From: Nitrosomonas sp. | GTDB taxonomy: Bacteria; Pseudomonadota; Gammaproteobacteria; Burkholderiales; Nitrosomonadaceae | DNA: 32,802 bases | Direction: 5' to 3' | Assembly: GCA_008015595.1 (NCBI GenBank) | Contig: SSFW01000001.1 | Span: 1-32,802 of the forward strand | Part shown: positions 2,309 through 23,297 of the stretch, piece after piece | How the letters are laid out: the number at the start of each line of letters is the position of its first letter | How positions within the stretch are numbered: position 1 is the stretch's first letter | The notes under the pieces: model-generated | What the model was told of the DNA's origin: nothing | The model's input: only the letters and a program-made list of their open reading frames with translations | Databases searched by the model: none | Translations under genes and position numbers: made by a program

Positions 2309-3226
2309 ATGAAATCATTTCGTCACAAATCAGGATTTGTACTAACCACGATTGCAGGCATAGGGCTAAGTATAGGGTTAACGATGGCAGCACCGCAAGT
2401 GTTTGCCCATGACCGTGCGAAAGCAATGGAGCAGCAAATCAAAATGCTTGAAAGCCAGCTAAAGACGCTACGGGAAGACTTCTATCGTGTTCAGGATTCG
2501 ACCAATGCTGAGAAACGCGAAGTAGAAGCGCTCAAAAATGAAATCCGGCAAGAGAAAGAAGCATTACAGAAAGCTCATGCTGAGCATCATGAAATAGAGA
2601 AGGCGCATGATGAATTTGGAAGAACGGTCGCGCGAAGAGATCGTGTATTGTTCTTCAGGGGCGGTTATGCGCATAACCTACAGGGTAGAAATGGTTCTTC
2701 AATACAAAGCAATGTGGCTCCAGTAGGGGTTCAAGAACCAGGCGACAATAATGGCTGGTATGTGGGTGCAGGCCTGGATTGGAGTTTAACTCGGGACGTG
2801 TGGGGTCTCATTCCTAAAACCAATGTGTATGCGGAATTGATGTTTGAATACAAAAAATTTGGCGTTTCACAAGGTAGTGCACTGGCAAATGTCCCAACAA
2901 CGTTAGTCGGGGCGCCGGATAATCCTCGTGGTGTGACGATTAGTCAATTTACGGTTTCAGCAGCACCCAAAATTAAATTCATGGAAGGCAGTGATTTCAG
3001 GCCATGGATCATTCCAGCGGGTTTTGCAGTGCATGTGGTAAGTCCAACCACCGAGTCGGTTACTTATTTAGCACCCGGCATGATGTTTGGCGCAGGGTTT
3101 GATTACCGCATTTGGAAAGAATTCTTCTTAGGTGCTGATGCGCGTTACCATGAAACCTTTGGTAAAACCGATGGGGTCAATGTCAGTGGTTTGACCGCGG
3201 GTGCATATCTTGGAATTGGTTTCTAA
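2309..3226 (+). CDS. Coiled-coil outer-membrane beta-barrel protein, paralogue 1
   Basis: Unnamed 305-residue envelope protein. It has a signal peptide of about 34 residues ending AAPQVFA just before HDRAKAMEQ. A charged heptad-rich coiled coil runs to about residue 105. The rest is a beta-barrel-like domain with alternating aromatic/hydrophobic strands and a terminal phenylalanine (YLGIGF), the usual outer-membrane insertion signal. A strong ribosome site (AAAGGAG) precedes the ATG. The gene at 4591 is a clear paralogue: the barrel blocks GLIPKT, AELMFEYK, TVSAAPKIKF and RPWIIPAG are shared, while the coiled coils have diverged. The coiled coil might form a periplasmic trimer or touch peptidoglycan, but that is inference; I do not know a characterised homologue. 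Confidence 0.8.
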   Translation: MKSFRHKSGFVLTTIAGIGLSIGLTMAAPQVFAHDRAKAMEQQIKMLESQLKTLREDFYRVQDSTNAEKREVEALKNEIRQEKEALQKAHAEHHEIEKAHDEFGRTVARRDRVLFFRGGYAHNLQGRNGSSIQSNVAPVGVQEPGDNNGWYVGAGLDWSLTRDVWGLIPKTNVYAELMFEYKKFGVSQGSALANVPTTLVGAPDNPRGVTISQFTVSAAPKIKFMEGSDFRPWIIPAGFAVHVVSPTTESVTYLAPGMMFGAGFDYRIWKEFFLGADARYHETFGKTDGVNVSGLTAGAYLGIGF

Positions 3227-4590: not shown

Positions 4591-5496
4591 ATGCAGCAAC
4601 GACGCTACAACCAAGAATTCAATTTTTTCTTAGTCATCAGTATGGTGTTCAGTTTTAGCTTAGTCCTATTTACATCACCGGTAGCGGCACACGATCGAGC
4701 CAAAGCATTAGAGCAAGAGGTTCTAGAACTAAAAAAACGATTAATCGCTATCCAAGATGAGTTGAGCCAAATCCGCACGGACTCGTCACGAGTTGAGCAG
4801 CAGGTTATCGAAAACAAACAAGCGATAAAAGAAGAAAGGGTAATCGTTCAACAAAAAATAGAATCCGAGAAGGAAGTGATCAAGAAAGCGATTCTGGAAG
4901 AATCGCCACGAAATATGATCTTTTTCCGTGGTGGATGGGCACGACAAGATCATCACCACAATGGTATTTCAGTGCAAAGTGGTGTAGCACCCGTTGGTGC
5001 GCAGCAACAAGCTCCCTTAAATGCTTGGTATGTCGGTGCTGGATTTGACTTTGGCTTAACCAAAGACACCTGGGGACTCATTCCTAAAACTGAACTCATC
5101 GCGGAATTAATGTTTGAATACAAGCAATTCGGAACGGTATTGGGAAATGCGCTGGCTAATGAACCAACCCAACTCGCTGGTGGTGACTTAAATCCACGCC
5201 ATGTGACATCGAGTACTGTCACCGTATCCGCAGCACCTAAAATCAAATTCTTAGAAGGTTACCGGTTAAGACCGTGGATCATTCCGGCAGGTTTAGCAAT
5301 TCATATCATCAGCCCTCCCTCCGAAACCATCACTTTCTTCCAGCCTGCTGTTATGTTTGCGGCTGGTGCAGATTACAAACTATGGAAAAATATCGTACTC
5401 GGCGTTGATGCACGCTATCATCTAATGGGTGGTCACTTGGATGGTCTCCGGTTAAATGGCTTAACACTGGGCGGATATTTAGGGATCGGTTTCTAA
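4591..5496 (+). CDS. Coiled-coil outer-membrane beta-barrel protein, paralogue 2
   Basis: Paralogue of the gene at 2309, 301 residues. A hydrophobic signal segment ends near SPVAA just before HDRAKALEQ. A glutamate/lysine-rich coiled coil runs to about residue 105, followed by a beta-barrel-like domain ending YLGIGF. Barrel blocks match paralogue 1 in order: FFRGGWA, SVQSGVAPVGAQ, WYVGAGFDF, GLIPKT, AELMFEYKQFG, TVSAAPKIKF, RPWIIPAGLAIH, DARYH. A strong AAAGGAG ribosome site precedes the ATG. It has its own upstream region of about 250 bases and its own downstream hairpin, so it is probably expressed independently. Function is unknown; the duplication suggests alternative surface or structural porin-like proteins. 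Confidence 0.8.
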   Translation: MQQRRYNQEFNFFLVISMVFSFSLVLFTSPVAAHDRAKALEQEVLELKKRLIAIQDELSQIRTDSSRVEQQVIENKQAIKEERVIVQQKIESEKEVIKKAILEESPRNMIFFRGGWARQDHHHNGISVQSGVAPVGAQQQAPLNAWYVGAGFDFGLTKDTWGLIPKTELIAELMFEYKQFGTVLGNALANEPTQLAGGDLNPRHVTSSTVTVSAAPKIKFLEGYRLRPWIIPAGLAIHIISPPSETITFFQPAVMFAAGADYKLWKNIVLGVDARYHLMGGHLDGLRLNGLTLGGYLGIGF

Positions 5497-7573: not shown

Positions 7574-10513
7574 CTAACTTATCTCGTTTTCCTCGAACAA
7601 TCGGAAAATATCCTCAGCAGCCGCTGGCTTTCCAACATGATAGCCTTGCGCATAGTCCACATCCATTTTTCCCAGCAGCATTAAAATTTCTTCACTTTCT
7701 ACAAACTCAGCAGTAATTTTCTTTCCAAAACCCTTTGCAACACTACATAGGGCTCTCACTAGAATCTGGTCATCTGGATTATTCGCTAAATTCCGAATAA
7801 AAGAACCATCAATTTTCACGGCATCCACCGGTAGCTCTCGTAAATAATAGAACGAAGAAAATCCAACGCCAAAATCATCAAGCACAAACCCACAACCCAA
7901 TTTTTTTATCTCGCGAAGTAGATTTCTCGTTCCAGGTAAGTTATCTAACGCCGCTGTTTCTGTTATTTCAAAAAATAGTAACGTGGGATCTACACCCGAT
8001 GAAGTTAATTCATGCCGAATCACCGGTAATAATTCCGGGTCGTTGAATGCATGGGCCGAGAGATTGATGGAGAATCGAATCGGTTTAGTCGATTTACTAT
8101 TTATTTTGGCGACCTGGGTAATCGCTTTCCGTAAAACCATGTGATCAATTGCATGGATCAGTCCGGTATGCTCAGCGGCTGCGATAAATGCAGCGGGTGA
8201 ATGAATTGTGCCATCATTGTCATGCATACGCAGTAACACTTCATAATGCGTAATCGCTCGATCATGCAATGACATGATCGGTTGGAAATAGAGTAAATAA
8301 TGATCGTATAAATTAGCATACTCGATTTTTTCTTTCCAATGAACCAGTGTATATAGCCGCTCCCGCGTTTTGTCATCATTTGAAAATAAATGCCACGTCC
8401 CTCGCCCAATTTCTTTAGCTTGATACATAGCTAAGTCAGCGGCAGCCAGTAAATCGTGCACATTCTTCCCATGCTCAGGAAAAAGCGCTATCCCTACACT
8501 TGCAGCAATTTTGTAGGTTCTTCCATTGACATTTAATTGCGTTTCACTCAAGCGCAACAAAATTTTCTTTGCAACTTCGATCGCTCCACCTGCAGAAATT
8601 TCTGGCAAGATGACTGCAAATTCGTCCCCTCCCAAGCGACCCGTTACATCAGCAGTCCGAATCGTGCGCGACAGCATCTCAGCCACCATCTTCAATAATG
8701 CATCGCCCGCTTGGTGTCCACTGGTATCATTAATATATTTAAAACGATCGAGATCAAAAAACAATAAAGCACCTGGATGCTGATATCTTTCTGCCCAACT
8801 CAGCATTTGCTCCAATTCTTCACTAAACCGTCGTCGATTAAATAAATTAGTCAGTGGATCATGGTCGGCCAACCAAGCAAGATGTCCTTCAACGCGCTTA
8901 TATTCGGTAATATCCAAACCAACCGATAAAACCGAAGGATCTGTTTCAGATTGCCAGGTTAATCGTGAATGCAGCCATACGATATGGCGCTTTGAGCCAT
9001 CATTACACAAGGTCATCGCTTCATGCCGCAACTGGTCACGATGTCCACGGCGAATTTCTTCAAGGTAATTGACAAGATTATATTGTTGATCGTTATCGGG
9101 CGCTAAAACTTCAAGAAAATACTTGGTCTGAATTTCTTCTTTAGAATAGCGCATCAACAGTTCACCATACGCATTCAACATGAGAATCTTTCCACTAACA
9201 TTTTGGGTTAGAACGATAACTTGTGCGGTATCCAATAGGTGAGCGATAAAATCTTTTTCTTTACTCAGCTCATCTCTCTGTTGGACAAGCAGTTTGGTAC
9301 GATACGCGACCTTATTCTCCAGTTTCTCAAGCTTATGGGATAACGCCACGGCTGCTTCATATAGAAGATCTACTTCATCTTTCAGCCACCGTTTCCGGCT
9401 AACAGAAGCTAGCGTAGCACGAAAAATCCCAAAGCTTCCACCTGCCAAAAGGGGTAATGTAAATACAATATGCTTGAGTCTCGTAAGGGGTAATGAAAGG
9501 ATTGCAAATAATATGAGCTCGGATACTAACAATCCCACTAATCCAATAATGATAATCCGCCAGGTAGAGTCTCGAATGGAAAGAATCGTTGGCGTAATAT
9601 CTGTAAGTACAACCAAATAAGCACGATCCAATACATTGACACCTCGCAACGAAAGTAGCTTGATTCGGTGATGACGATTATCCCACTCAGTATGAATCCC
9701 TACCCTAAGATCCTGAATAGTAGGGTGTGATTGGGCTATTCGATGAAGTATCTCTAAATTCTTTTCCCTATTCGTCAACGCAGCTAAGCGCACGCCCCAA
9801 TTTGAAAACTCGACATCATTCTGTTGTATATCTACGCCATCTGCCTTCATTTTCAAGAGCAATCCAATATCGGATCCGAATGTTCGTTTAAATCCCAGAA
9901 AAACATCTGCTAATGAAGCGCCGATGACCATCGCTCCGGCGCGAACTCCATTAATCAATAAGGGTTCGATGGTATATTGCAAGCACATTTCGATACAAAT
10001 CAATAAACTCGCCGGTAATTCTTGTGAATTGACATCATGGACCTGCTCTAATATGAGGGCATCACGCTGCGAATCCTCTTCAAAGTTATCCCAACCAACC
10101 AACAGTTGATCCGACTGATCATAAAACCGAATTGTTTCGATGCCATTATGTAACTGAAATAACGACCAGTGTTGCTCAAAGGCTTGGGTAATTTGAGCGC
10201 TATCTTGCAGCACTAATGCAGTATCCATTTCTTTCAAGAAAGGAATCAGCCTAATTAATTGGCGAGAATTATTCGACGTTTGCTCGATTAAATTCTCAAC
10301 TTCGGTAACATAGCGTTGGTATTGCAAACTGCTCTGATAATCAACGTTATCAATGAGGCTTCGATAATTGATCACGCTAAACATCGTAACTACAATCAGC
10401 AAAATCAAACTACTCAGCAATGAAATTTTCCATTTCAAGCTAAAGAATTTTGATAATGTTTTATGGATCTCCTTGTCGAGGCGAGTGAGCGACACCAAAT
10501 GACTGAGCTTCAT
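7574..10513 (-). CDS. Membrane-bound PAS-GGDEF-EAL cyclic-di-GMP enzyme
   Basis: Bifunctional c-di-GMP protein of about 979 residues. A first transmembrane helix (SLLSSLILLIVVTMFSVINY) and a second (IIIIGLVGLLVSELILFAIL) enclose a large periplasmic sensor of about 260 residues. Next come a coiled linker, a PAS domain with PAC-like end, a GGDEF domain and an EAL domain. GGDEF is intact (GRLGGDEFAVILPE) with an RTAD inhibitory site five residues upstream. EAL reads EVLLRM but keeps the key Glu, and INLSAHAF, FEITET, LDDFGVGFSS, VDAVKIDGSF, AEFVESEE and QGYHVGKP are all present, so both activities look possible. The track start is a TTG inside the porin gene; I prefer the ATG at 10513 (MKLSHLVSL), 11 bases after the porin stop. 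It is last of the acyltransferase/PBP/porin set, so the sensor may report a periplasmic ligand handled by those proteins. Confidence 0.9.
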   Translation of the reverse strand: MKLSHLVSLTRLDKEIHKTLSKFFSLKWKISLLSSLILLIVVTMFSVINYRSLIDNVDYQSSLQYQRYVTEVENLIEQTSNNSRQLIRLIPFLKEMDTALVLQDSAQITQAFEQHWSLFQLHNGIETIRFYDQSDQLLVGWDNFEEDSQRDALILEQVHDVNSQELPASLLICIEMCLQYTIEPLLINGVRAGAMVIGASLADVFLGFKRTFGSDIGLLLKMKADGVDIQQNDVEFSNWGVRLAALTNREKNLEILHRIAQSHPTIQDLRVGIHTEWDNRHHRIKLLSLRGVNVLDRAYLVVLTDITPTILSIRDSTWRIIIIGLVGLLVSELILFAILSLPLTRLKHIVFTLPLLAGGSFGIFRATLASVSRKRWLKDEVDLLYEAAVALSHKLEKLENKVAYRTKLLVQQRDELSKEKDFIAHLLDTAQVIVLTQNVSGKILMLNAYGELLMRYSKEEIQTKYFLEVLAPDNDQQYNLVNYLEEIRRGHRDQLRHEAMTLCNDGSKRHIVWLHSRLTWQSETDPSVLSVGLDITEYKRVEGHLAWLADHDPLTNLFNRRRFSEELEQMLSWAERYQHPGALLFFDLDRFKYINDTSGHQAGDALLKMVAEMLSRTIRTADVTGRLGGDEFAVILPEISAGGAIEVAKKILLRLSETQLNVNGRTYKIAASVGIALFPEHGKNVHDLLAAADLAMYQAKEIGRGTWHLFSNDDKTRERLYTLVHWKEKIEYANLYDHYLLYFQPIMSLHDRAITHYEVLLRMHDNDGTIHSPAAFIAAAEHTGLIHAIDHMVLRKAITQVAKINSKSTKPIRFSINLSAHAFNDPELLPVIRHELTSSGVDPTLLFFEITETAALDNLPGTRNLLREIKKLGCGFVLDDFGVGFSSFYYLRELPVDAVKIDGSFIRNLANNPDDQILVRALCSVAKGFGKKITAEFVESEEILMLLGKMDVDYAQGYHVGKPAAAEDIFRLFEENEIS

Positions 10514-10524
10514 AATATTGACTA

Positions 10525-11763
10525 CTAGAAACGATATGAAGCTTGGAACGCAAACAAATTCCAATGTTGATCAGTATTAGCAGGCAGGAATCGTTGTAAA
10601 GTAGCATTTGGCGCTCGATTATCCAACGAAGAAATCCAGCCTGTGCCATTGATATAATGATATTCAGCGCGCAGCATGATCGATGGTGTCACATTCCAAC
10701 GTAACCCTACTGTGATATCTTTGGCAAATCGACTATGGGCTGGAATATTTCCTTGCAATTCTGGTGGAATTTTGTTATCGATTAGAAACTGCTTCCCGTC
10801 TCGATCAGTCCTATCTGCATAGTAGGCATCATAGCGCAGCACACCTTCCCAGCTTGGAGAGAAACGATAGATACCTTGGAAATAGTAGCTTTCCCCAGTA
10901 AAATTCAAATCAGGTCTGGCAACAAAATCCTGCCGCTCGATATGGCGGATTGCATATTCTGAAGTTAGACTCCAACGTTCTGAATTGTACTGCGCAGAGA
11001 ATATAATAGGTGTAAATTGAAAAGTTCCTAGACCCGAATAAGTGTCATTTTGTTGAGCTGCATTATATCCCGTATTGACTTGAGCACCACTTAGGGCAAA
11101 CCTAACTCTTCCACCATCGTATTCATAGATCAAGCGACCAATATAGGATAAATGCGGCGTGATACTCCCAGGACGATCTGCCTGCAGAATAGCAAACTCG
11201 GTACTTCGATCACCTGCTTGCGGAAAAACAACCCCGAATTGTGCATTCAGATCCCCCCAACTATTCCTCGATTCCCCATACAACTGAACTCCATCAGAAG
11301 CCAAGCCTAAATTTCGAGTGCGATCGAAATAGATCGACTGCGGCAGTAAAATGCTGGGGCGTGTAAATGGTACATCGCGCGTATCGTTATAAAATCCTAA
11401 TGGGTTTTTCGTTCTACCTAACCTTATACCAAAATCCATTGACTCCGTACTTATTGCAGTGTAATCAACAAAACCATAGTCAATACGAATACCGCCTTTA
11501 CTATCCTCACCCGCACTTCGTGATAACAACTGCCCTGAAAATTGTAAGTTAGGCAATGGCCGATAAGAAGCGTTAGCGCCTATTTCTCTAAAATCAAAAC
11601 TGCCATTTCCGCTGCTATTCCCAAATACGTCATTGTTGCCTGTTGATTTCAAATAGCCTTGGCTCAGAAAACCATGTACTCGGATTCCTTTTACATCCTG
11701 TGCAATACCCTCCTGCATCATAACAATAAGCAATAGGACTACGGAAGTGAGTCTGCACATCAT
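10525..11763 (-). CDS. Porin-like outer-membrane beta-barrel protein
   Basis: Predicted secreted beta-barrel of about 412 residues. A signal peptide (CRLTSVVLLLIVMMQEGIAQ) leads into KGIRVHGFLSQGYLKSTGNN and regularly spaced amphipathic strands, ending in aromatic FQASYRF, the C-terminal insertion signature. Porin-like blocks include IRLGRTKNPLGFYNDTRD and SLTSEYAIRHIERQDF. I recognise the general type but not the substrate. The track start (11820) would overlap the upstream gene by 32 bases and add a low-complexity STLNKQHSTLN leader; the ATG at 11763, just before the signal peptide, is more likely. Its position between a PBP-like protein and a membrane c-di-GMP sensor suggests a role in uptake or sensing of a small solute, which is inference. 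Confidence 0.8.
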   Translation of the reverse strand: MMCRLTSVVLLLIVMMQEGIAQDVKGIRVHGFLSQGYLKSTGNNDVFGNSSGNGSFDFREIGANASYRPLPNLQFSGQLLSRSAGEDSKGGIRIDYGFVDYTAISTESMDFGIRLGRTKNPLGFYNDTRDVPFTRPSILLPQSIYFDRTRNLGLASDGVQLYGESRNSWGDLNAQFGVVFPQAGDRSTEFAILQADRPGSITPHLSYIGRLIYEYDGGRVRFALSGAQVNTGYNAAQQNDTYSGLGTFQFTPIIFSAQYNSERWSLTSEYAIRHIERQDFVARPDLNFTGESYYFQGIYRFSPSWEGVLRYDAYYADRTDRDGKQFLIDNKIPPELQGNIPAHSRFAKDITVGLRWNVTPSIMLRAEYHYINGTGWISSLDNRAPNATLQRFLPANTDQHWNLFAFQASYRF

Positions 11764-11788
11764 TGCATAATTGAGTGTTGAGTGCTGT

Positions 11789-12247
11789 TTATTCAATGTT
11801 GAGTACATGTATGCTTTCATCGATGTTAGCTCTCTTTAAATAACCAATCGCGCCAGGAGTGCTGGATATACGTTCACGCATTTCTTCTTCAGTTCTTACT
11901 AAGAAAGGAGCCTGTCCTGTTCCTGAGAAAATTAATTTATCCCACCCAGCTCTAAGCTGATAGGGAAAAATATTGAGCTTTTCTTTTGTGAAGATGGTAT
12001 GCAACACAGCATCATCAGGCATAACAAAAACCCTGACTGGCATGCCGTTAGGCCAGGTTTTTAGGCGCATTCCAAACGCAGCGCGTAAAGAATTTCTTGA
12101 ATAACTCTTTAATTCGACACTCGGATGAATTACTGCTTCGACGGAATCATTGGCGTAAGTGTGTGTTGCAAAATACGACACGCCAAAAACAAAAAAGAAT
12201 AGCGAGACGATTCGATAGCAGTAATTAAAACGGTTTCTCGCTACCAT
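11789..12247 (-). CDS. Small periplasmic phosphate-binding-protein-like (PBP domain) protein
   Basis: A 152-residue exported protein. The hydrophobic signal (IVSLFFFVFGVSYFATHTYA) is followed by a domain resembling the second half of PstS-type substrate-binding proteins: LKSYSRNSLRAAFGMRLKTWPNGMPVRVFVMPDD, then GWDKLIFSGTGQAPFLVRTEEEM and the typical STPGAIGYLKR loop. It is much shorter than a full solute-binding protein (about 300 residues), so it may be a one-lobe sensor or partner. No ABC permease or ATPase gene is nearby. It starts 15 bases after the acyltransferase stop and its end precedes the porin start by about 25 bases, so it is probably co-transcribed with both. Ligand unknown. Confidence 0.75.
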   Translation of the reverse strand: MVARNRFNYCYRIVSLFFFVFGVSYFATHTYANDSVEAVIHPSVELKSYSRNSLRAAFGMRLKTWPNGMPVRVFVMPDDAVLHTIFTKEKLNIFPYQLRAGWDKLIFSGTGQAPFLVRTEEEMRERISSTPGAIGYLKRANIDESIHVLNIE

Positions 12248-12262
12248 ATAGGCTATAGAACC

Positions 12263-13054
12263 TTAACAAGTCACCATTTCATTACTCGCTAACAAAATAT
12301 GCTGATTCCGCTCTCGAACTGATTGTAGATCAGAAGGCCAAATCCGCCCATTGTCGGTTACAAGTTCCCATACCTCTGGGTAGTTGACATACATTCGTTC
12401 TAAAACATCAATAACACAGACATGATAAGGTCGGCGTGGACCATAATAATCAACAATTGGACCAATTGGATTTAGTTGCATTCCATAAAATCCCAGCAAT
12501 CGATTTAAAGCCGGATCCATGGCAGAAAACCAGAAAAAGAAATCATGCTTAGCACATAGCTGAATGATGCCAACAGCGAGCCCTAGCATGGGATGTGGAA
12601 ATCTTCTACGTTCATTTTTTCGAATACCTTGGCTTGCAGCTTTGTCAACGCTGAAACGAAAATCATCTTTCCTTCTAAAGAAATCGCTATGAATCGCAAA
12701 CCGAGAAATCTCGACCGTATGTTCGCGAATGATATTCATATTAGAGAATGCGGGATAAAACTGTGTATGCAGTTCAACTGGGAAAGCTCGATTTGCTAAT
12801 GGAGAAGGGTCAGACAAGATTAAGCGCGCTGTGCCCATAAAAGCGTTAGAAGGTTTATGACGAAGCAAAATATGAATTGAATGGTCATCGAATTCATCTT
12901 TTTCTAGCTCATCTGGATATAACGTAGTATCAAAAATTCCCGTATTTAAACACATGATTCGGTAACGCAGACGATACACTTCTTTTTTTAATTCTAGGGT
13001 ATCCGCTACCACAATTTCAAAATATTCATGAAAAGCGTCGGCAATATCGCTCAT
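12263..13054 (-). CDS. PEP-CTERM/exosortase-associated acyltransferase (GNAT, LuxI-like)
   Basis: Acyltransferase of the acyl-CoA N-acyltransferase superfamily, close in pattern to acyl-homoserine-lactone synthases and to the exosortase-associated family known as TIGR03694. The signature runs LKKEVYRLRYRIMCLNTGIF, EKDEFDDHSIHILLRH, FMGTARLIL and EISRFAIHSDF. The catalytic substrate is not known for this family. The TTG at 13069 in the track is unlikely; the ATG at 13054 (MSDIADAFHEYFEIV) follows a good GGAAGG site and gives 263 residues. The gene is first of a tight four-gene run and lies on the same strand as the Prs/XrtA cluster, which is 376 bases away. Two related palindromes lie upstream. 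Confidence 0.87.
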   Translation of the reverse strand: MSDIADAFHEYFEIVVADTLELKKEVYRLRYRIMCLNTGIFDTTLYPDELEKDEFDDHSIHILLRHKPSNAFMGTARLILSDPSPLANRAFPVELHTQFYPAFSNMNIIREHTVEISRFAIHSDFFRRKDDFRFSVDKAASQGIRKNERRRFPHPMLGLAVGIIQLCAKHDFFFWFSAMDPALNRLLGFYGMQLNPIGPIVDYYGPRRPYHVCVIDVLERMYVNYPEVWELVTDNGRIWPSDLQSVRERNQHILLASNEMVTC

Positions 13055-13105
13055 GATAATCCTTCCCAAATTAATGGGTTAATGTAATCTAAAGAAACTA
13101 GATTG

Positions 13106-13445: not shown

Positions 13446-15293
13446 TTATCTAGAACGTTGCTTATACCAGCATTCTAACATCATAAGCAACCAAACCATT
13501 GTTCCGTGATAACTCGCATGCTGATGCAGATACTGACTTAAAATTTTGTCTATAAAATTGACGCGGAAAATATGACGTTTTTTTAGATCTGTCAAACAGT
13601 CTGCAGCTTGCGCTTGAAGTAATTTATTTTCTTGGAGCCAAATTCCAAATGGCAATCCGAATCCATGCTTTTGTTTAGTAATAATCTCTTTCGGAAGGAA
13701 ATCACGTAGTGCTTCCTTAAAGAAATAACGTAGTTTCGTTTTCTTTAACTTAAGTTCAGGTCTAAGTCTCTCAGAAAAAGAAACCATTTCGCTATTCAAA
13801 AAAGGATAGGCAACATCTACTGCCGCTAATTCACAAGCTTTAGTGACTTTTGGTAAATCATTATCTGTTAATGTATATTTCCAGTCATAAGCTAGCATAC
13901 GATTGATAAGTGTGGTTGTCTCAGCTTTATGATAGGTTTGATTAATTTGTGAGGCAGGCTCGTTTATATCAATATTTGATAAAAAATCTTCGGTAAAAAC
14001 ATCTTGATAACCATAACGAATGAGTAAATTATAGGTCTCCATACGATGTGGCATCGGTATGGATGCTTGAGAAATGTAGCTATGGATTTTCCGAAATAAG
14101 TTTATATTCGATTCAGCAAGGGTTGATAGTGCAAATGGTGTAATTATTTTTTCCCGAAGAACGCTAGGAATTCTTTCATATAAAGAAAAAACGTATTGCT
14201 TAGCATAGCGAACATTACCCCCAAAAAGCTCATCACCACCATCACCACCTAATAACAGATCAATCCCATCTTTCTTTGCCATCTGAGCACAATAAAAACT
14301 GGGTATAGCAGATGCATTCCCAAAAGGTTGATCAAAAATAGCTGCAACCTGTGGTATAGCCGATGCAACATCTTCTGGTGTCACATAATATTCATGATGA
14401 TTTGTCGAAAAATGTCGGGCAGCAATGCGTGCATAATCCATTTCATCATAACCCGGGGCATCAAAGCCGATAGAAAATGTTTTAGCAGGCTTTCCCGTAA
14501 CTTCTTGGAGCATACCTGCGATTGTCGAACTATCCGTTCCACCACTAAGGAATGCGCCCACATGCTGGTAACCTGCAATTGCATCCTCCATACTCGTATG
14601 CAGCAGCGAAATAAAGCTTTGTTTTAATTCACTAAACGACTGTACCTCATTTTCTCTAAATTGCGCATTCCAATAACGTTCAACCGTAAGCGTCCCATGC
14701 TTATAGTAAATATATTCACCAGGAAGTAAGCGTCTCGGTTCACGGTAAATTGTATTAGGACCGGGCACCATATGAAAATAAATATAGTCATAAATACCCT
14801 GATTGCTAATTTCGTCTTTTGCAAGTGGGTGCCTCATCATCGCATCAAGCGAAGTACCAAATAGTAGGCCATTTTCTAGAATTTGATAGTAAAGTGGGCG
14901 AGTTCCCATTCGATCAACGGCTATAAATACTTCATGGGATTTAGCATTGACAAGACAACAGATAAATTCCCCGAGTAGGCTTTCAATAATACTTGGTCCA
15001 TTGTTCACCCACTGATCAAGTAAAACACCAGCGATTCCCTGAGAGAGAATGAGTTGATTCAACTCATCATTATTAAATTTTGCATGTCCCCATATTCCAA
15101 CGATAATGTCATTTTTATGGAAGTAATGAAGTTGTTGTTCGCTTGCTGCGATTGCAAGAGATGAGTTCTCATCGACATAAATCTGCGAGCGACTGTGATC
15201 AAACCGGGTAAGTACTTGAGCCATCGATTCACTAATCTGTTGATTCTCAACAACTGATTGCCCATAACCAACCCAACCACACACTCCACTCAT
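13446..15293 (-). CDS. Asparagine-synthetase-like amide ligase, exosortase cluster type, degenerate glutaminase
   Basis: A 615-residue protein with class-II glutaminase-like and asparagine-synthetase domains. In asparagine synthetase the first domain releases ammonia from Gln and the second forms an amide from an acyl-adenylate. The synthetase half looks intact: the pyrophosphate loop SGGTDSS is at residues 250-256, LLLGGDGGDELFGG follows, and KQKHGFGLPFG matches the region of the catalytic Lys. The glutaminase half looks dead: the N-terminus is MSGVCGWVG where active enzymes have MCGI, so the nucleophile Cys2 is Ser, and the usual NGEIYN block reads GHAKFN. A GTG at codon 4 would put Cys second (V-CGW), but the SD site AAGGA is correctly spaced for the ATG. 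It follows the PLP decarboxylase and acyl ligase, so it probably ligates an amine onto an acyl or amino-acid substrate in the same pathway. Confidence 0.85.
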   Translation of the reverse strand: MSGVCGWVGYGQSVVENQQISESMAQVLTRFDHSRSQIYVDENSSLAIAASEQQLHYFHKNDIIVGIWGHAKFNNDELNQLILSQGIAGVLLDQWVNNGPSIIESLLGEFICCLVNAKSHEVFIAVDRMGTRPLYYQILENGLLFGTSLDAMMRHPLAKDEISNQGIYDYIYFHMVPGPNTIYREPRRLLPGEYIYYKHGTLTVERYWNAQFRENEVQSFSELKQSFISLLHTSMEDAIAGYQHVGAFLSGGTDSSTIAGMLQEVTGKPAKTFSIGFDAPGYDEMDYARIAARHFSTNHHEYYVTPEDVASAIPQVAAIFDQPFGNASAIPSFYCAQMAKKDGIDLLLGGDGGDELFGGNVRYAKQYVFSLYERIPSVLREKIITPFALSTLAESNINLFRKIHSYISQASIPMPHRMETYNLLIRYGYQDVFTEDFLSNIDINEPASQINQTYHKAETTTLINRMLAYDWKYTLTDNDLPKVTKACELAAVDVAYPFLNSEMVSFSERLRPELKLKKTKLRYFFKEALRDFLPKEIITKQKHGFGLPFGIWLQENKLLQAQAADCLTDLKKRHIFRVNFIDKILSQYLHQHASYHGTMVWLLMMLECWYKQRSR

Positions 15294-15354
15294 ATCGATT
15301 CCTTTTTATAGTTATAGAAATTTAAGCCTGAGCTTATCTAGAGAAGTAAGTAGA

Positions 15355-16590
15355 CTAAACCAGAACCTCTAAGGGTATGGGGTGACTGAGAAATGATATA
15401 GGGCTCGCTGTCAAACCATAAGCACCTGATTGAAATACCACTATCAGATCACCAATCTCTGCTTTGGGTAATTCCATTTGATCTGCCAACAAATCAAGCG
15501 GAGTACATAATGGACCAACAACTGATACCACCTCAGTCTCCGCGGTTTCCGCCTTAGTTCCAACTGTGACTGGGTAATTTTTTCGAATAACTTGCCCAAA
15601 ATTACCTGAAGCTGCTAGATGGTGATGCATGCCACCATCGGTAATTAAAAATAATTGTCCCCTCGAATTTTTTTTATCTAACACCCGACATACATATATC
15701 CCTGCTTCGGCAACGATATATCGGCCCAGCTCAATCACAAACTGTGTATCTGAAAGTTCTGACTCTATTTTGTTCAGCAAATGCTGTAGATTCTCACCCA
15801 CAGCAACAAGGTTCAACGGCGATTCCCCAGGAAAATAAGGTATACCAAACCCTCCACCCATGTTAAGAGAAGGGATAGAAACTGAAGATTCTTTCGCAAG
15901 CCTAACTGCTAGTTGAAGTGTTTTTTCATGCGCATCTTGGATTGCTTCTACTTTAAGATTCTGTGAGCCGCTAAAAATATGAAGCCCTTCAAATACTATA
16001 CCGAATTCAACAATTCGACGAAGTACAATTGGGGCACGTTCAGCATCAATTCCAAACTGTTTAGGCCCTCCTCCCATTTTCATTCCTGAGGATTTCAGTT
16101 CGAAATCAGGATTAATGCGAACGGCTACTTTAGGCGTTATTCCTAAGCGCTCAGCAAGAGCTACAATTCGCTCTAACTCAAGCTCCGATTCAATATTAAT
16201 CACAATACCAGCAGCAATTGCGCAGGAGAGCTCATGTTCATTTTTTCCAGGCCCAGCAAAACTCATTTTACTCGGTAACATCCCTGTATCTAGTGCTACC
16301 TTAATCTCTCCCAATGAAGCGACATCAATACCATCAACCAAACCTGCAATATGCTGAACGACTGCCGGCATTGGATTCGCTTTCATTGCGTAATGTAATT
16401 TTATTTTATTGGGTAGGCACTGGCGCAAAAACAAAATACGCTCAGTAATCAGTTTCCGGTCATAAGCAAAATAAGGAGTACTCCCAACACGCTGAGTTAA
16501 ACGATTAAGAGACATACCTCCGATCTGAATGCAATGATCGCGTATCGGAAACTGATCGAAAGACGCATGCTTAGGTCGATTATTTGTCAT
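15355..16590 (-). CDS. PLP-dependent decarboxylase, exosortase A-associated type
   Basis: Fold-III (alanine racemase-like) amino-acid decarboxylase of the ornithine/diaminopimelate decarboxylase group, 411 residues. The PLP lysine is K70 in HYAMKANPMP. The phosphate-binding glycine loop GGGFGIPYFPGE, GPLCTPLDLL with the second-subunit cysteine, and FQSGAYG are all present. The pattern fits the exosortase-cluster family known as TIGR03099. The physiological substrate is not established. It lies 13 bases after the acyl ligase and about 60 bases before the asparagine-synthetase-like gene, so the three form one unit. A plausible role is making the amine of a small tailoring group for the exopolysaccharide, which is inference. 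Confidence 0.88.
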   Translation of the reverse strand: MTNNRPKHASFDQFPIRDHCIQIGGMSLNRLTQRVGSTPYFAYDRKLITERILFLRQCLPNKIKLHYAMKANPMPAVVQHIAGLVDGIDVASLGEIKVALDTGMLPSKMSFAGPGKNEHELSCAIAAGIVINIESELELERIVALAERLGITPKVAVRINPDFELKSSGMKMGGGPKQFGIDAERAPIVLRRIVEFGIVFEGLHIFSGSQNLKVEAIQDAHEKTLQLAVRLAKESSVSIPSLNMGGGFGIPYFPGESPLNLVAVGENLQHLLNKIESELSDTQFVIELGRYIVAEAGIYVCRVLDKKNSRGQLFLITDGGMHHHLAASGNFGQVIRKNYPVTVGTKAETAETEVVSVVGPLCTPLDLLADQMELPKAEIGDLIVVFQSGAYGLTASPISFLSHPIPLEVLV

Positions 16591-16603: not shown

Positions 16604-18181
16604 TTAATTTATAAATGAATGTTGGAGTTCATTAGCTAGACTTTTACGGTCAATCTTCCCATTAGGATTACGAAGTAAGCTATTTTTTCTTATATCGACT
16701 AGCGCAGGTAACATATAGGCAGGGAGCGCTTGCTTGCAAGCGGACAATAAAACATCAGCATTAAGATTTACGTCTTGCCTTGGAACGACTACTACCACAA
16801 TGGCCTGCCCCAATACTGGATGTGGGACGCCTACTGCAGCAACCTCAGCAACTAATTCGGTTGAATAAATAATTTCCTCTATTTCCGTAGGACTAACGCG
16901 ATAACCCGAAGTTTTAATCATATCATCGCGACGCCCAATGAAATACAAAAAACCTTCCTCATCCGTTCGCACTGTGTCTCCTGACCACACAGCAATTTCA
17001 GGAATAGTTAAACCACTTTGACGAGGCGACAATTGTCTAAAACAAGCTGATGTCTTTTCCACATCATTCCAATAGCCCATGGAAACAAGAGGACCTCGAT
17101 GTACAAGTTCACCCGGTTCACCCGGCGCACATTGTGATCCATCTTCTCGTAATACTAAAACCTCTACATTGGGTATGGCCTTCCCGATCGAATCAGGACG
17201 TTTATTAATCTCTTCAGGGGGCAAATAAGTCGAGCGAAATGCTTCTGTTAAGCCATACATCAGGAAAATACTTGTTTTTGGAAAAAGGCCACGAAGCTGA
17301 TCTAAAGTCGCTTTAGGCATTGCGCCACCTGAGTTGGTAATATAACGCAGTGATGTCAAGCCTTCCCATTTTAGCTGGGAAAGCTGTATCCACAGGGGGG
17401 GAACTGCTGCCAGGCCAGTAATATCCTCTTTGATTACTTCATCCATAATGTCACGAGGTAGCAAGTAATTCATCAATACACAAGTCGCACCCACGTAAAA
17501 TGCAGTTGTTAACTGGCTTAATCCATAATCAAAGCTTAGCGGTAATACTGATAAAATCCGGTCATCTGAGTTATTTTTTAAATAAGTAGAAACACTTTTT
17601 GCACCCGTGACAAGATTACGGTGAGAGAGAACTACCCCTTTTGGCTTCCCTGTACTTCCTGATGTATAGAGAATAGCAGCCATGTCACTATCGATCGTGC
17701 GATGTGTATAGCAGGATGTTTTTTCAGCTATAACTTCTTGCCAACGAATAAGGTTTAGCCCCTTGACGCTAGGTAACTCCACGTTATCGTCTACAACGAT
17801 AACCGTATGCAAGTCATGGCAATTTGTTAAAACTGCCTTCAGCAAATTAAAACGACTTATTGATGTAACTAGAATCCTTACATTACAATCACTAAGGATA
17901 TAGCTAACTTGCTCTGCCTTGAGCAGAGGATTGATTGGAACGAATACACCACCTGCTGCAGAAGCTGCGAATAATGCGGTAACTCCTTCAACTCTTTTCT
18001 CAAGATATACAGCTAGCCGTTCACCACGTGCAATCCCAATTTTAATAAACCCAGTTGCTAGTTTCTGAGTTTGCTCTGCTAATTCTAAATAGTCCAGCCG
18101 ATGCTGTTGACTAATAAGCGCTTCCGATTTAGCACCGCAGTTAGCGGCTTTATAAATCAGTTCATGGAATAAATGCGGCAT
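16604..18181 (-). CDS. AMP-forming acyl ligase, exosortase A-associated type
   Basis: Adenylate-forming enzyme (ANL superfamily), 525 residues. Motifs in order: AAILYTSGSTGKPKGVVLSH (P-loop), YGLTEAFRSTYLP, WSGDTVRTDEEGFLYFIGRRDDMIKTSGYRVSP (hinge region) and the C-terminal NPNGKIDRKSL carrying the catalytic Lys. This last motif resembles peptide-synthetase adenylation domains more than fatty acyl-CoA ligases, so the substrate could be an amino or hydroxy acid. Pattern and neighbours fit the family known as TIGR03098. Such ligases are often accompanied by an acyl carrier protein, and I find no ACP ORF here. It is the first of a three-gene unit 67 bases downstream of prsR. Confidence 0.88.
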   Translation of the reverse strand: MPHLFHELIYKAANCGAKSEALISQQHRLDYLELAEQTQKLATGFIKIGIARGERLAVYLEKRVEGVTALFAASAAGGVFVPINPLLKAEQVSYILSDCNVRILVTSISRFNLLKAVLTNCHDLHTVIVVDDNVELPSVKGLNLIRWQEVIAEKTSCYTHRTIDSDMAAILYTSGSTGKPKGVVLSHRNLVTGAKSVSTYLKNNSDDRILSVLPLSFDYGLSQLTTAFYVGATCVLMNYLLPRDIMDEVIKEDITGLAAVPPLWIQLSQLKWEGLTSLRYITNSGGAMPKATLDQLRGLFPKTSIFLMYGLTEAFRSTYLPPEEINKRPDSIGKAIPNVEVLVLREDGSQCAPGEPGELVHRGPLVSMGYWNDVEKTSACFRQLSPRQSGLTIPEIAVWSGDTVRTDEEGFLYFIGRRDDMIKTSGYRVSPTEIEEIIYSTELVAEVAAVGVPHPVLGQAIVVVVVPRQDVNLNADVLLSACKQALPAYMLPALVDIRKNSLLRNPNGKIDRKSLANELQHSFIN

Positions 18182-18248: not shown

Positions 18249-19607
18249 CTATTTAAGCCCATGTCGATTCATTAAGTCATACAAGGTGGGTCGACTGACG
18301 CCTAATAACTCAGCTGCCCTAGCAATATTTCCATCCACTTTCGCTAGTGCTCTCACAACCGCCTTACATTCTTCTTTTTCACGAATCTCACGCAAATTAA
18401 GCGGCTCTTGAGGTTTAGCAGACTCCTGAATTCCTAGATCATCCAATGCAATTTGTGGGCCCTCTGCCATAATAACAGCGCGTTTAATACAGTTTTCCAT
18501 TTCACGAATGTTTCCTGGCCAACTGTAAGACTCTATAGCTGATAATGCTTCTTGGGAAAAACTCATTGAATGACGACCCTCTTTAGTCGCAAATTTATTT
18601 CGAAAATGATGAGCCAGCAGTACTGCATCTCCTAACCTCTCGCGTAAAGGTGGAATTTTGATGGAAATCTCGCCCAATCGATAGAACAAATCCTCTCGGA
18701 AACGCCCTTCTTCGATCAATTTCTTAAGATTCTGATGGGTAGCACAAACAACTCGAACATCGACTGGTATTTCTTCGCGCCCACCAATTCGTTCGATAAC
18801 TCTTTCTTGGAGAAATCTCAGCAATTTCGCTTGTAATGATAGGGGTAAATCACCCACTTCATCAAGGAAGAAGGTACCGCCTTGTGCCAGTTCAATTTTA
18901 CCTAATGTCTGCTTAATTGCACCGGTAAAAGCACCCTTTTCATGACCGAACAGCTCACTTTCTAATAAGCTTTCAGGAATAGCAGCGCAATTAATCGCAA
19001 CAAAACGCCCTTCTTTTCTAGTGCTCAATTGATGCAGCGCTTTAGCTAGAACTTCTTTACCTGTACCACTCTCTCCGAGTAACATGACTGTGACATCAGA
19101 AGGCGCAACCCTCTCGATATTGCGACACATTCTGATCATATTAGGATCACGAGTTACAATTCCTGAGATAGGTGAATCTGAATGAGACAATAATAGTGAA
19201 CGATTCTCACGTTGAAGCGCATGCAAGTAGAAAGCCCTATCGATAATTAAGCTTAGCATTTTTGAATCAAAAGGTTTCTGATGGAAATCATAGGCGCCTA
19301 GTTCAATCGCCTTAAGTGCGTTCTCTCGATTCTGGTTTCCCGTTAATACAATTATCTTAGTATTAGGCGCTAATGCGAGTATTTGCTTTAGAGTAGCAAG
19401 TCCTTCTGAAGCTCCATCAGGATCAGGTGGCAACCCTAAATCCATAGTAACCACAGAAGGCTCATGACGTCGAACTTGTACGAGTGCACTTTCTCTATCA
19501 CCAGCCACAAAAACTTCGCAGTTATCAAAACTCCAACGTAATTGTTTCTGAAGACCTGGATCATCTTCAATCACAAGTAACTTTCTTTGGTCATCACTTG
19601 TTTTCAT
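18249..19607 (-). CDS. prsR: Sigma-54-dependent response regulator, PrsR type
   Basis: NtrC-family activator of 452 residues, matching the PEP-CTERM-box regulator PrsR. The receiver domain has the phosphate acceptor D56 in VVTMDLGLP and K111 in FHQKPFD. The AAA+ domain has Walker A GESGTGKE, the sigma-54 contact loop GAFTGA and Walker B GTFFLDEVGD. The C-terminal Fis-type helix-turn-helix is NIARAAELLGVSRPTLYDLMNRHGLK. Its cognate kinase is the upstream prsK. In known systems it activates RpoN-dependent promoters of PEP-CTERM protein and polysaccharide genes. I saw no convincing -24/-12 promoter within the window, so its main targets probably lie elsewhere. Confidence 0.94.
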   Translation of the reverse strand: MKTSDDQRKLLVIEDDPGLQKQLRWSFDNCEVFVAGDRESALVQVRRHEPSVVTMDLGLPPDPDGASEGLATLKQILALAPNTKIIVLTGNQNRENALKAIELGAYDFHQKPFDSKMLSLIIDRAFYLHALQRENRSLLLSHSDSPISGIVTRDPNMIRMCRNIERVAPSDVTVMLLGESGTGKEVLAKALHQLSTRKEGRFVAINCAAIPESLLESELFGHEKGAFTGAIKQTLGKIELAQGGTFFLDEVGDLPLSLQAKLLRFLQERVIERIGGREEIPVDVRVVCATHQNLKKLIEEGRFREDLFYRLGEISIKIPPLRERLGDAVLLAHHFRNKFATKEGRHSMSFSQEALSAIESYSWPGNIREMENCIKRAVIMAEGPQIALDDLGIQESAKPQEPLNLREIREKEECKAVVRALAKVDGNIARAAELLGVSRPTLYDLMNRHGLK

Positions 19608-19808: not shown

Positions 19809-21881
19809 TCAAATTCCCTTTTGATTTTCCATAAGCGGTAAAGTAATCAAAAAAATGGTTCCAATAAATTCACGACTAGAAACTTCCAACTGCCCTCCAA
19901 GCTCACTAATATACTCTTTGCTCTCAAAAACACCAATTCCCATACCCGCTGTTTTAGTTGTTTCAAAAGGTCGAAATAGTTTATTTTTGATAAACGCTTC
20001 ACTCATACCATGCCCGTTGTCTTCAATTTTAATTAGCGCTTTGTCTTCGTTTTTAGAAAGTTCAATTTTTACAAACCCAGTCTTAGATGTTGCTTCGATT
20101 GCATTTTGAATTAGATGCCCAATAACTCGCTCAAGCCTTGTTAGATCAGCTTTTACCATAAGCTTTTCATCCGATATGTCTAACGAAGGTTGTGGCTCAC
20201 AAATTAATTTTCGCTGTACTATTTGTCTCAGCAATTGATCCAGAAACACGCATTCTGTTTTTACTGTTTCATGATCGCTATTTAATTTTTCCAACAAGCG
20301 TTGCATTTTATTTACTGAGAAACTCACTGTTTCCATCATATCTTTCTGAAATTCGGGATTCTCTTTATGCTTCTCAGCATTCGTGAGTAAAAGTGATAAC
20401 TGGAAAATTAAATTTTTTATATCATGAACTACAAAAGTAGACATACGATTAAAAGATTCAAATTGTCGCGCTAAGGACAACGCCGTTGTAACTTCATATT
20501 GAACTAAATAACTGGTTGCTTGTGTACTAGCAACCCATAGCAGATCCCTAACTTCCCAATTCAATTTAATTATACTTCTCGGTTCAGCCAGCGCAATGAA
20601 CCCAACCAACTCATTATTGAGAATAAGGGGAATAATTAATCGAAGTTTCTCATTTGCTAAAACCCATGACGGCAGCGCTAAGCCCGAATATTTTTGTGGA
20701 TGTAATCGATACTCGCCTAAGTCGATAACCCATCTTTTTTGGTTAAGAAATTGGCAAAATTCATCATTACTATGATCAGCGATATCTTGAGTTTTAAGTG
20801 AAAAATTCCAACTCGCTGTTAACTTAAATTCTCCTTGCTCTGATTTATACCAAAGTATTCCAGCAGGGCTCTCAACTAATTGTGCGAGTGATTTAATTAC
20901 CCTAGTTCTTAATTCTAACGACTCCTCCGATAAGGTGCGTGTAAAACGCAACCACTCCTCACGATAATCATAATTGTAGCTATAAAAATTTTTACTGATA
21001 AATACTTTAAGCCAGGAACGCGTCGTTCCTGAAGATAAAATAACCAAAAGTAATACTATTGCACCAAACAAAAAAGTAAGCTGCAGAACAGTTCCCCACG
21101 TTCCTCCGGAGAGTCTTATGTAATACCCAACTCCCGCCATTGCGAGTAAATATACAGCCGCACCAAATAAGGTTGATGAGTAAAAAAGAATTTGGCGAGA
21201 TAGAGAAATGCCGACTGACCACTTCGGATTCCTTGCCGCAGATAGCCCAACTAATGGCACAGTGAGCAAGTTGACCCAGCCACGAGCATCCCAAATATCA
21301 GTATTTACTTTACCTAACAATAAAGCATCACTAAAAAGAAAAAAATCGTATACAAAAAAACCACCGATTCCTAAGCAAAAAAATTTGATTCCCCAGCGCT
21401 GATCTACAGGGGTATTTCGATAATACTGTTCGATTAAAATCATACCTATCAGCGGCATGATCACACTCACTAAATAATCTGTTTGATAACCACCTGAAAA
21501 TACTCCCTTCGTATCCTGGGAGTAAATGACAGTAAAAATAGCAGCCAAGTAGAGTAGTAAGATCCCGATTACGGATGATTTAAGTTTTAATGTACTTGAT
21601 TTACTTTCATTTTTTTGAAAAGGACCAAGTAGAATAATTAAAAACAATGACCAGCTTAAGTTTTTAATTATTTCTAGTATCTCAATCGAGAAAATGGAAG
21701 GATAACCCCAATAAGACTGGGCTGAGATATTAGCAGCCCAGAGTGATGACGTTATGCACGCAATTGCCAACAATATCCCGTAAAACTTTCCACGCCAACT
21801 TGTAACCAGCAAAATGAAAAGAACAAAATATCCTAGCGATGCGGCAGCATAACTCAATGCACTAATGGGTAACGTAAGCAT
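19809..21881 (-). CDS. prsK: PrsK histidine kinase of XrtA/PEP-CTERM system
   Basis: Sensor kinase of 690 residues. The N-terminal third is hydrophobic with about eight to nine transmembrane helices. A GAF-like cytoplasmic domain follows (VESPAGILWYKSEQGEFKLTASW), then the kinase core. Phosphoacceptor H-box is VVHDIKNLIFQLSLLL, with N-box IQNAIEATSKTG, G1 EDNGHGM and G2 AGMGIGVFESKEYI. This order matches PrsK, partner of PrsR in exosortase-A bacteria. It begins 18 bases after the sugar transferase stop. The signal it senses is not known; the multi-helix input suggests a membrane-derived or lipid-soluble cue. Confidence 0.93.
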   Translation of the reverse strand: MLTLPISALSYAAASLGYFVLFILLVTSWRGKFYGILLAIACITSSLWAANISAQSYWGYPSIFSIEILEIIKNLSWSLFLIILLGPFQKNESKSSTLKLKSSVIGILLLYLAAIFTVIYSQDTKGVFSGGYQTDYLVSVIMPLIGMILIEQYYRNTPVDQRWGIKFFCLGIGGFFVYDFFLFSDALLLGKVNTDIWDARGWVNLLTVPLVGLSAARNPKWSVGISLSRQILFYSSTLFGAAVYLLAMAGVGYYIRLSGGTWGTVLQLTFLFGAIVLLLVILSSGTTRSWLKVFISKNFYSYNYDYREEWLRFTRTLSEESLELRTRVIKSLAQLVESPAGILWYKSEQGEFKLTASWNFSLKTQDIADHSNDEFCQFLNQKRWVIDLGEYRLHPQKYSGLALPSWVLANEKLRLIIPLILNNELVGFIALAEPRSIIKLNWEVRDLLWVASTQATSYLVQYEVTTALSLARQFESFNRMSTFVVHDIKNLIFQLSLLLTNAEKHKENPEFQKDMMETVSFSVNKMQRLLEKLNSDHETVKTECVFLDQLLRQIVQRKLICEPQPSLDISDEKLMVKADLTRLERVIGHLIQNAIEATSKTGFVKIELSKNEDKALIKIEDNGHGMSEAFIKNKLFRPFETTKTAGMGIGVFESKEYISELGGQLEVSSREFIGTIFLITLPLMENQKGI

Positions 21882-21899
21882 ATGATCAACTGATTATTC

Positions 21900-23297
21900 C
21901 TACCTACCACCTTTACCCAATAGCACAACGCCTATCGTATCGATCAGAATAATGAGATCAAGGAACAAGCTATGGTTTTTCACATAATATAGATCGTATT
22001 GTAATTTCTCGATGGAATCTTCTACTGATGAGCCATAGGGATAACGAACCTGAGCCCAACCCGTTATTCCGGGTTTAACGCTATGCCGAATATTGTAGTA
22101 AGGTACTTGTGCGATAAGCATATCTACAAAATAGGGCCTTTCAGGGCGCGGACCAACAAAACTCATTTCACCCTTTAACACATTAATGATTTGAGGAAGC
22201 TCATCAATTCGCAGCTTACGAATTATTTTTCCAATCCGAGTAATACGAGGATCATCCTGAGTAGACCATTGGGGTTTCCCTCCTTTTTCCGCATCATTTC
22301 TCATACTCCTAAATTTAATGACTGAAAAAATGCTTCCTCCACGCCCAATCCGCTCCTGACGGTAGAAAATCGGTTTTCCATCTTCTAATAAAATGATGAT
22401 CATCGTGATCAGCATGATTGGAAACGTAACAATCAATAGCAGTATGCTTGCACATAAATCAAAAATACGCTTTATTAATGATCGAATCAGGCTTTGATCA
22501 AATCCCCTACTAAAAACTAACCAACTTGGCTGAAGTGAATCCATTCGAATATAACCTCTTTCTTTCTCATAAAAGGTAGCTATATCCATCACATTGATTC
22601 CATTCATTTTACATTCTAATAATTCTTGGATTGGAAACCCTCCTCCTCTCCGCTCCTGAGTTGCAACGATCACTTCACTTACATCTTTTTGGGTTGCCAA
22701 AACACTTAGATTACTACTTTTCTCAATAATATCCGTAACCGGAATTTGTCGCTCTTCCCCATAAAAAGGAACATACCCAACGATATTATGATTACGAAAG
22801 AAAGATTTTTCTTCGATCAGTTTATAGAGTTCATGAGCACTATTTCCCGTTCCAAGTACGATTGCTCTCGGGCGAAAGAGCTCTACGCCAGGCAATCGAA
22901 AAAATAACATTCTTAACAGCAATAGCAATGCAAAAGCAAGAACCATCGCAATAGCAAGCAGACCACGCCCAAAGTAAAGATCAGGTAAAACATAAAAAAT
23001 CAAAGTCATTATTGCAAAGCTCAATGCAAATGCAGGCATCAACCGCAATAATATTGACTCAAAATCTAATTTAAAAGCTGATTGATACATACCCATAGCC
23101 GCCATACAGATGATAGTTACTAACGTAAAGGTCAGCGCGCCAGGCAATTCAGACAAAAAAAGATTGATTTCGATACTTTCCCAAGAAGCATAGCGAATTC
23201 CAGCACCAATATAGAAAACAATCATCAATAAACAAATCTCGGTACAAATAAGTGCCAAAGTTAATCGAGAAATGTAATGGTTATATACGCGAATCAA
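21900..23297 (-). CDS. TIGR03013-type sugar transferase (polyprenyl-phosphate glycosyl-1-phosphate transferase)
   Basis: Initiating sugar transferase of 465 residues that places the first sugar phosphate on the undecaprenyl carrier for exopolysaccharide. It has four to five N-terminal transmembrane helices, a central Rossmann-like domain (RPRAIVLGTGNSAHELYKLI), and the C-terminal bacterial sugar transferase domain: KRIFDLCASILLLIVTFPIML, PIFYRQERIGRGGSIFSVIKFRSM, DELPQIINVLKGEMSFVGPRPERP and KPGITGWAQVRYPYG. The start codon is TTG, supported by a strong AGGTGAGGA ribosome site and the family-like N-terminus IRVYNHYISRL. It heads a run with prsK and is the only glycan biosynthetic enzyme in the window. 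The polymerase, flippase and exosortase are not present here. Confidence 0.92.
   Translation of the reverse strand: MIRVYNHYISRLTLALICTEICLLMIVFYIGAGIRYASWESIEINLFLSELPGALTFTLVTIICMAAMGMYQSAFKLDFESILLRLMPAFALSFAIMTLIFYVLPDLYFGRGLLAIAMVLAFALLLLLRMLFFRLPGVELFRPRAIVLGTGNSAHELYKLIEEKSFFRNHNIVGYVPFYGEERQIPVTDIIEKSSNLSVLATQKDVSEVIVATQERRGGGFPIQELLECKMNGINVMDIATFYEKERGYIRMDSLQPSWLVFSRGFDQSLIRSLIKRIFDLCASILLLIVTFPIMLITMIIILLEDGKPIFYRQERIGRGGSIFSVIKFRSMRNDAEKGGKPQWSTQDDPRITRIGKIIRKLRIDELPQIINVLKGEMSFVGPRPERPYFVDMLIAQVPYYNIRHSVKPGITGWAQVRYPYGSSVEDSIEKLQYDLYYVKNHSLFLDLIILIDTIGVVLLGKGGR

Follow-up and report, generated by a model that had tools for sequence, protein, structure and literature searches.

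An asparagine-synthetase-like family with a dead glutaminase domain is a probable component of the XrtA/PEP-CTERM system

A synthetase-like gene among exosortase-associated genes

What does an asparagine-synthetase-like enzyme do when it can no longer hydrolyse glutamine, and why does its gene lie among genes of the exosortase A system? The window, by which we mean the whole stretch of 32,802 nucleotides of Nitrosomonas DNA that was analysed, raises this question with an intact open reading frame at 13446–15293. The open reading frame listing and its translation place this gene on the minus strand, which the preliminary description had not specified, and give an asparagine-synthetase-like protein of 615 aa with a dead glutaminase domain. 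The gene is neither a chance reading frame nor a gene in decay, because orthologues are carried by 50 of 125 Nitrosomonadaceae genomes, nearly all of them at full length.

The neighbouring genes, likewise on the minus strand, belong to families of the PEP-CTERM/exosortase A system. An acyltransferase associated with PEP-CTERM/exosortase loci (TIGR03694; 235 bits, cut-off 112) lies at 12263–13069. On the other side of the gene are the exosortase A system-associated PLP decarboxylase at 15355–16590 (TIGR03099; 603 bits, cut-off 478) and AMP-forming acyl-CoA ligase at 16604–18181 (TIGR03098; 805 bits, cut-off 592), the PEP-CTERM-box response regulator PrsR at 18249–19607 (TIGR02915; 772 bits), the XrtA/PEP-CTERM histidine kinase PrsK at 19809–21881 (TIGR02916; 856 bits) and the XrtA/PEP-CTERM system sugar transferase EpsB_2 at 21900–23297 (TIGR03013; 608 bits). 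The identities first proposed for the decarboxylase and the ligase are thus confirmed, with both scores above cut-off. The decarboxylase was also considered as the housekeeping LysA and rejected, a separate LysA-like gene being present on contig C154. The description of the locus as an exosortase-type cluster holds for the families of the neighbouring genes, but the window contains no exosortase; XrtA is found outside it, on contig C66 of the same genome, together with an intact TIGR03108 amidotransferase (1096 bits) in which the motifs MCGI, HRRLSI, NGEIYN and CDTEV are all present.

We additionally identified two features elsewhere in the window. At 7574–12247, a 152-aa protein, a 431-aa outer-membrane-like protein that matches no Pfam or NCBIfam model, and a GGDEF-EAL protein form one module, which is conserved alongside the ligase, decarboxylase and acyltransferase in nitrosomonads, including those that lack XrtA. 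Two outer-membrane-type proteins that resemble each other, and that share HDRAKA-E close to their starts, are encoded at 2309–3226 and 4591–5496 on either side of a short-chain dehydrogenase-like gene, and the pair looks duplicated.

Loss of the glutaminase residues and conservation of the synthetase domain

We read the glutaminase positions by alignment to Escherichia coli AsnB and to intact TIGR03108 proteins, using AsnB numbering. Residues 1–215 of the 615-aa protein (14649–15293, minus strand) form an N-terminal domain of the glutaminase fold that has lost its catalytic and Gln-binding residues. The residues that define class-II amidotransferases, a Cys directly after the Met (C2) together with R50, N75, E77 and D99, are all replaced, with Ser at 2, Trp at 75, His at 77, no Arg at 50 and no Asp at 99, and G76 alone is retained, beside a structural DRxGxxPL region that is also kept in the family. 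The protein begins MSGVCGW (residues 1–7; 15273–15293, minus strand), with Ser2 in the place of the nucleophile Cys of class-II enzymes, and WGHAKFN (residues 68–74; 15072–15092, minus strand) is the degenerate counterpart of NGEIYN, of which only the Gly is kept family-wide. The Pfam model GATase_7 matches weakly, and within residues 95–153 alone, in the C-terminal part of the domain.

This loss extends across the family, as seen in 20 homologues and in 20 further genomes sampled across the order, a few rows of the latter containing stray single-letter matches to glutaminase residues that are chance coincidences. The 38 orthologues compared at the start read M[S/G/A]G[LIV]CGW, with residue 2 being Ser, Gly or Ala; in the wider family of the 20 further genomes residue 2 is S, T, A, K, R, D, P or others, and residue 5 is C, I, F, M or L. 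Cys5 was considered as a displaced nucleophile because it is invariant in the 38 orthologues, an invariance that the search pattern itself demanded, and it was rejected on account of its replacement in the wider members. The earlier claim of a dead glutaminase is accordingly upheld, every glutaminase and Gln-binding residue other than G76 having been lost across the family.

The two halves of the protein differ in conservation. Identity to relatives is 19–48% in residues 1–215 and 47–68% in residues 216–615. Against a relative from another lineage (locus L020), the N- and C-terminal domains are 28% and 47% identical, compared with 65% and 62% for the intact TIGR03108 proteins of the same two genomes. 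These comparisons show that the N-terminal domain has been released from constraint; it would persist only as a structural remnant.

The synthetase half, in contrast to the N-terminal domain, is intact, as had been proposed. The Asn_synthase domain (PF00733) is matched at 258 bits against a cut-off of 21, and includes the SGG-DS PP-loop as SGGTDSS (residues 250–256; 14526–14546, minus strand), in which S250, G251, G252, D254 and S255 do not vary. GGDGGDELFGG follows at residues 349–359 (14217–14249, minus strand), and Lys542 (13668–13670, minus strand), within the catalytic-Lys region KQKHGFGLPFG, aligns with the catalytic Lys of both AsnB and beta-lactam synthetase. The PP-loop, GDGGDE and K542 are invariant in 21 diverse sequences. 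With the glutaminase dead and the synthetase half conserved, glutamine hydrolysis by the protein itself therefore cannot supply ammonia, here or in the other members of the family.

The preliminary description likened the protein to beta-lactam synthetases, and this likeness stands in part. The AlphaFold2 model (pLDDT 93, pTM 0.92) matches the structures of TsnB9, AsnB, beta-lactam synthetase and CarA, and the AsnB fold, the non-working glutaminase domain and the conserved catalytic Lys are common to the 615-aa protein and to beta-lactam synthetase and CarA. The lactam synthetases have a Tyr-Glu dyad that is missing here, however. At the positions that we take to be Y345 of CarA and E382 of beta-lactam synthetase, the family has invariant Asp residues, D351 (also opposite a Glu of AsnB) and D479; the alignments behind both pairings are weak, although the GGDGGDE motif itself is clear. 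Since the dyad is absent, the synthetase centre is AsnB-like and unlike that of lactam synthetases, and intramolecular chemistry is not implied. The existence of a Tyr-Glu catalytic dyad in beta-lactam and carbapenam synthetases is taken from a reference listed in PMC13060819.

Comparison with other known enzymes did not place the protein in a named family. No NCBIfam model scores it above cut-off, and none names the family. TIGR03108 (eps_aminotran_1, the WbpS-like XrtA amidotransferase) shares the two-domain AsnB fold, the association with the XrtA system, an SGG-DSS PP-loop and GDGGDE; the 615-aa protein nevertheless lacks its glutaminase residues, scores 298 bits against the curated cut-off of 816.9, and coexists with an intact TIGR03108 protein in one genome. 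For AsnB itself the TIGR01536 score is 239.8 bits against a curated cut-off of 267.1; the E. coli enzyme is alike in synthetase motifs and general fold (TM 0.60), and differs in retaining the five residues C2, R50, N75, E77 and D99. The best solved relative, by sequence and by fold, is the hydroxyamidotransferase TsnB9 (PDB 7YLZ; TM 0.75/0.79, the former value above that of AsnB), which has in common a start of the form MxGVxGWV but retains Cys2, and is 17% identical. The nitrogen donor of TsnB9 is other than a plain amine. Lasso peptide cyclases (NF033535), which are AsnB-like and amide-forming, are related in sequence at 129 bits, far under the cut-off of 525, and the annotated neighbours of the gene include no precursor peptide. 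A second AsnB-like protein of the window's own genome (contig C56; locus L028, 4360–6096), with the start MTIFAGI lacking Cys2 and a degenerate GDGGSMG, is unrelated.

Co-occurrence of the family with XrtA

We investigated the distribution of the family in 399 genomes of the order, counting XrtA as present when its score exceeded the cut-off of 208 bits. The family was identified in 81 genomes and XrtA in 90, with both in 79 (Fisher p 1.5e-68 over the 399 genomes, kinship being ignored). The family is thus found almost only with XrtA, and in most XrtA genomes (79/81 and 79/90), as a component of the XrtA system should be, and it shares this co-occurrence with TIGR03108, of which it is a trait. 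The two family-positive exceptions contain XrtA-like matches below the cut-off, at 177 and 169 of the 208 bits, and 11 of the 90 XrtA genomes are without the family.

Similar relationships were found within the Nitrosomonadaceae, where 51 of the 125 genomes are family-positive if genome G096 is included, in which the start of the gene is visible before masked sequence. In that genome (locus L080, 5500–8177) the start of the orthologue, MSGLCGWLGYGHSVT, is readable and the remainder is masked as N. TIGR03108 is found in 50 of these 51 genomes, the exception being the incomplete G017, and an XrtA-type exosortase also in 50, the exception being the incomplete G006; the sampled Nitrosomonadaceae without the family gene are also without XrtA and TIGR03108. 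The three loci are unlinked and lie up to megabases apart (1.11, 0.48 and 3.12 Mb in G074). Mapped onto the ligase tree, the family must have been gained or lost at least three times, two of these changes being forced by well-supported branches. Genome G010, which a fully supported branch joins to the window and Nitrosomonas nitrosa, contains neither the family gene nor XrtA nor TIGR03108.

Because the family is nearly confined to XrtA-bearing bacteria, it probably represents a core enzyme of the XrtA system that has yet to be named, forming an amide bond in the cell-surface polymer.

The proposed reaction and its alternatives

Our proposal, to which we assign a probability of roughly 0.62, is that the 615-aa protein belongs to the XrtA/PEP-CTERM exopolysaccharide system as a near-obligate component without a name, and acts there as an amide synthetase with an AsnB fold that does not depend on glutamine. 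The observed co-occurrence with XrtA, dead glutaminase domain and invariant synthetase motifs point to an amide chemistry in which the synthetase domain would adenylate a carboxylate, and the adenylate would be attacked by a nitrogen nucleophile arriving from outside and not from the protein's own N-terminal domain. This nucleophile is more likely to be an amine than free ammonia, and the acid would probably serve as a building block, either of the polymer linked to XrtA or of the linker that accepts PEP-CTERM proteins from XrtA. Enzymes of the AsnB fold that have no glutaminase are already known; the libraries and the part of the literature that we searched yielded no such family bound to XrtA.

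The closest functional precedent is WbpS, a TIGR03108 member that turns the linking sugar used in a sortase system into a uronamide, and whose authors propose a similar role for exosortases, citing Nitrosomonas exosortase loci (PMC7468200). The molecule that receives exosortase-attached proteins is described as unidentified in the same work (PMC7468200). The present family, found in 79 of the 90 XrtA genomes of the order, nearly absent elsewhere and clearly altered in its chemistry, offers a concrete candidate for the synthesis or decoration of this acceptor; a plain label of "asparagine synthase" would mask the loss of the glutaminase. A more specific proposal is that XrtA depends on a nitrogen nucleophile put in place by this enzyme: an amine-bearing group would be joined through an amide to a carboxylate in the polymer or linker, and its amine would then take the C terminus of the PEP-CTERM protein, so that the enzyme would belong to the biosynthesis of the exosortase acceptor. 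We consider this a long shot.

The flocs of XrtA bacteria matter for sewage treatment. One of two asparagine synthase paralogues of Zoogloea was reportedly required for flocs in a study of 2016. The Zoogloea polymer cluster holds two asparagine synthetase genes (PMC9012009), and asnB/asnH are reported to be needed for flocs (PMC7662799); in Rubrivivax, mutation of a wbpS-like gene altered aggregation (PMC3684757).

An ammonia-dependent amidotransferase, which would act as AsnB does without its Cys and use free ammonia to form a primary amide, for instance a uronamide, is possible, if on balance unlikely. AsnB-type enzymes that lack glutaminase activity are generally still able to use free ammonia, and in D351 and D479 the family matches AsnB/TIGR03108-type enzymes, with their acidic residues, and not lactam synthetases, with their Tyr and Glu. 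The family further co-occurs with TIGR03108, whose relative WbpS forms uronamides (PMC7468200), and the Nitrosomonadaceae, to which the window belongs, oxidise ammonia. However, the family is also present in Massilia, Janthinobacterium and other bacteria that do not oxidise ammonia, and losing the glutaminase in all its members would come at a cost if the enzyme needed ammonia. These points favour an amine as the nucleophile of the proposed synthetase.

The source of such an amine was previously sought in the adjacent genes, in a three-gene route whereby the ligase activates an acid, the decarboxylase yields an amine and the 615-aa enzyme couples both into a small amide. The gene order is consistent with this, as the decarboxylase lies immediately upstream of the family gene in 46 of 50 Nitrosomonadaceae, and ligase, decarboxylase and family gene recur jointly in Massilia, Janthinobacterium, Azoarcus and Rhodocyclaceae. 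Moreover, where the local decarboxylase is decayed (L008) or absent (G047 and G074), another TIGR03099 copy is encoded elsewhere in the genome. The route is nevertheless not general, since, across the order, 30 of the 81 genomes with the family encode no TIGR03099 decarboxylase. In several of these the family gene directly follows PrsR-PrsK-EpsB2 (G343 and G137) or sits among glycosyltransferase-like genes in the XrtA polymer cluster, frequently close to TIGR03108 (G488, G172 and G310). Conversely, 22 decarboxylase-positive genomes of the 399 lack the family; among the 125 Nitrosomonadaceae the ligase is found in 105 and the decarboxylase in 106, versus 51 for the family, and the pair persists in many nitrosomonads that lack the family gene or XrtA. 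In the family-less genomes the order ligase-decarboxylase-acyltransferase runs on without the gene, and a search for a replacement in its place found only 340–440 bp without coding sequence, or, in G010, a transposase. An acyl-CoA-forming ligase would also be superfluous beside an enzyme able to adenylate the acid by itself. The route is on these grounds improbable: the decarboxylase is dispensable, the ligase-decarboxylase pair is an optional partner and not a required supplier, and the stable partner of the family is XrtA.

Several further observations were made at these loci. In L008 (9467–9917) the local TIGR03099 gene is a decayed remnant and in L074 (7520–8127) none was detected; the other copy in the same genome is about 54% identical to that of the window, which suggests replacement. 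In G010 (region 6255–8537 of L070) the transposase-like reading frame encodes 335 aa and lies between the decarboxylase and the acyltransferase. A motif search of all loci found no acyl carrier protein near the trio. Elsewhere in the window's own genome, a GNAT-like protein, an 85-aa acyl carrier protein and two hydrolase-like proteins are encoded in a row (contig C74; L088, 1132–3862), probably as another XrtA-associated locus, and HPr-kinase-like, PqqD-like and nucleotidyltransferase-like genes with a small leader-like reading frame, recognised by eye (contig C47; L087, 11536–14268), are possibly a peptide natural product locus.

The 615-aa protein is very unlikely to be without catalytic activity or to act as a regulator, for instance as a subunit that partners TIGR03108. 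Its near one-to-one co-occurrence with TIGR03108 in the Nitrosomonadaceae would fit such a role, but the two loci are unlinked in most genomes compared, and the invariance of the PP-loop, GGDGGDE and Lys542 across diverse sequences is that predicted for an active synthetase.

Finally, we considered whether translation might begin at an internal GTG and yield an ordinary glutaminase with Cys2 and an intact Gln pocket, as codon 4 of the window's gene is GTG and is followed by TGT, and the wider relatives L098 and L099 read MKGMCGW, with Met in the place of codon 4. Among the 38 orthologues GTG is restricted to the window's genome, codon 4 being TTG in 13, ATA in 7, ATT in 5, CTC in 4, TTA in 4, CTG in 3, ATC in 1 and GTG in 1; TTG and CTG can initiate in principle, and ATA, ATT, ATC, CTC and TTA are no normal starts. 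A Shine-Dalgarno sequence, AAGGA (15300–15304, minus strand), lies 6 nt upstream of the ATG, and most of the 38 orthologues contain a purine-rich site of the AGGA/GGAG type at similar spacing before codon 1. With codon 4 so varied, the ribosome site fitted to codon 1, other members having I, F, M or L at residue 5, and no member, L098 and L099 included, retaining the Gln pocket, the internal start has a negligible chance of being correct.
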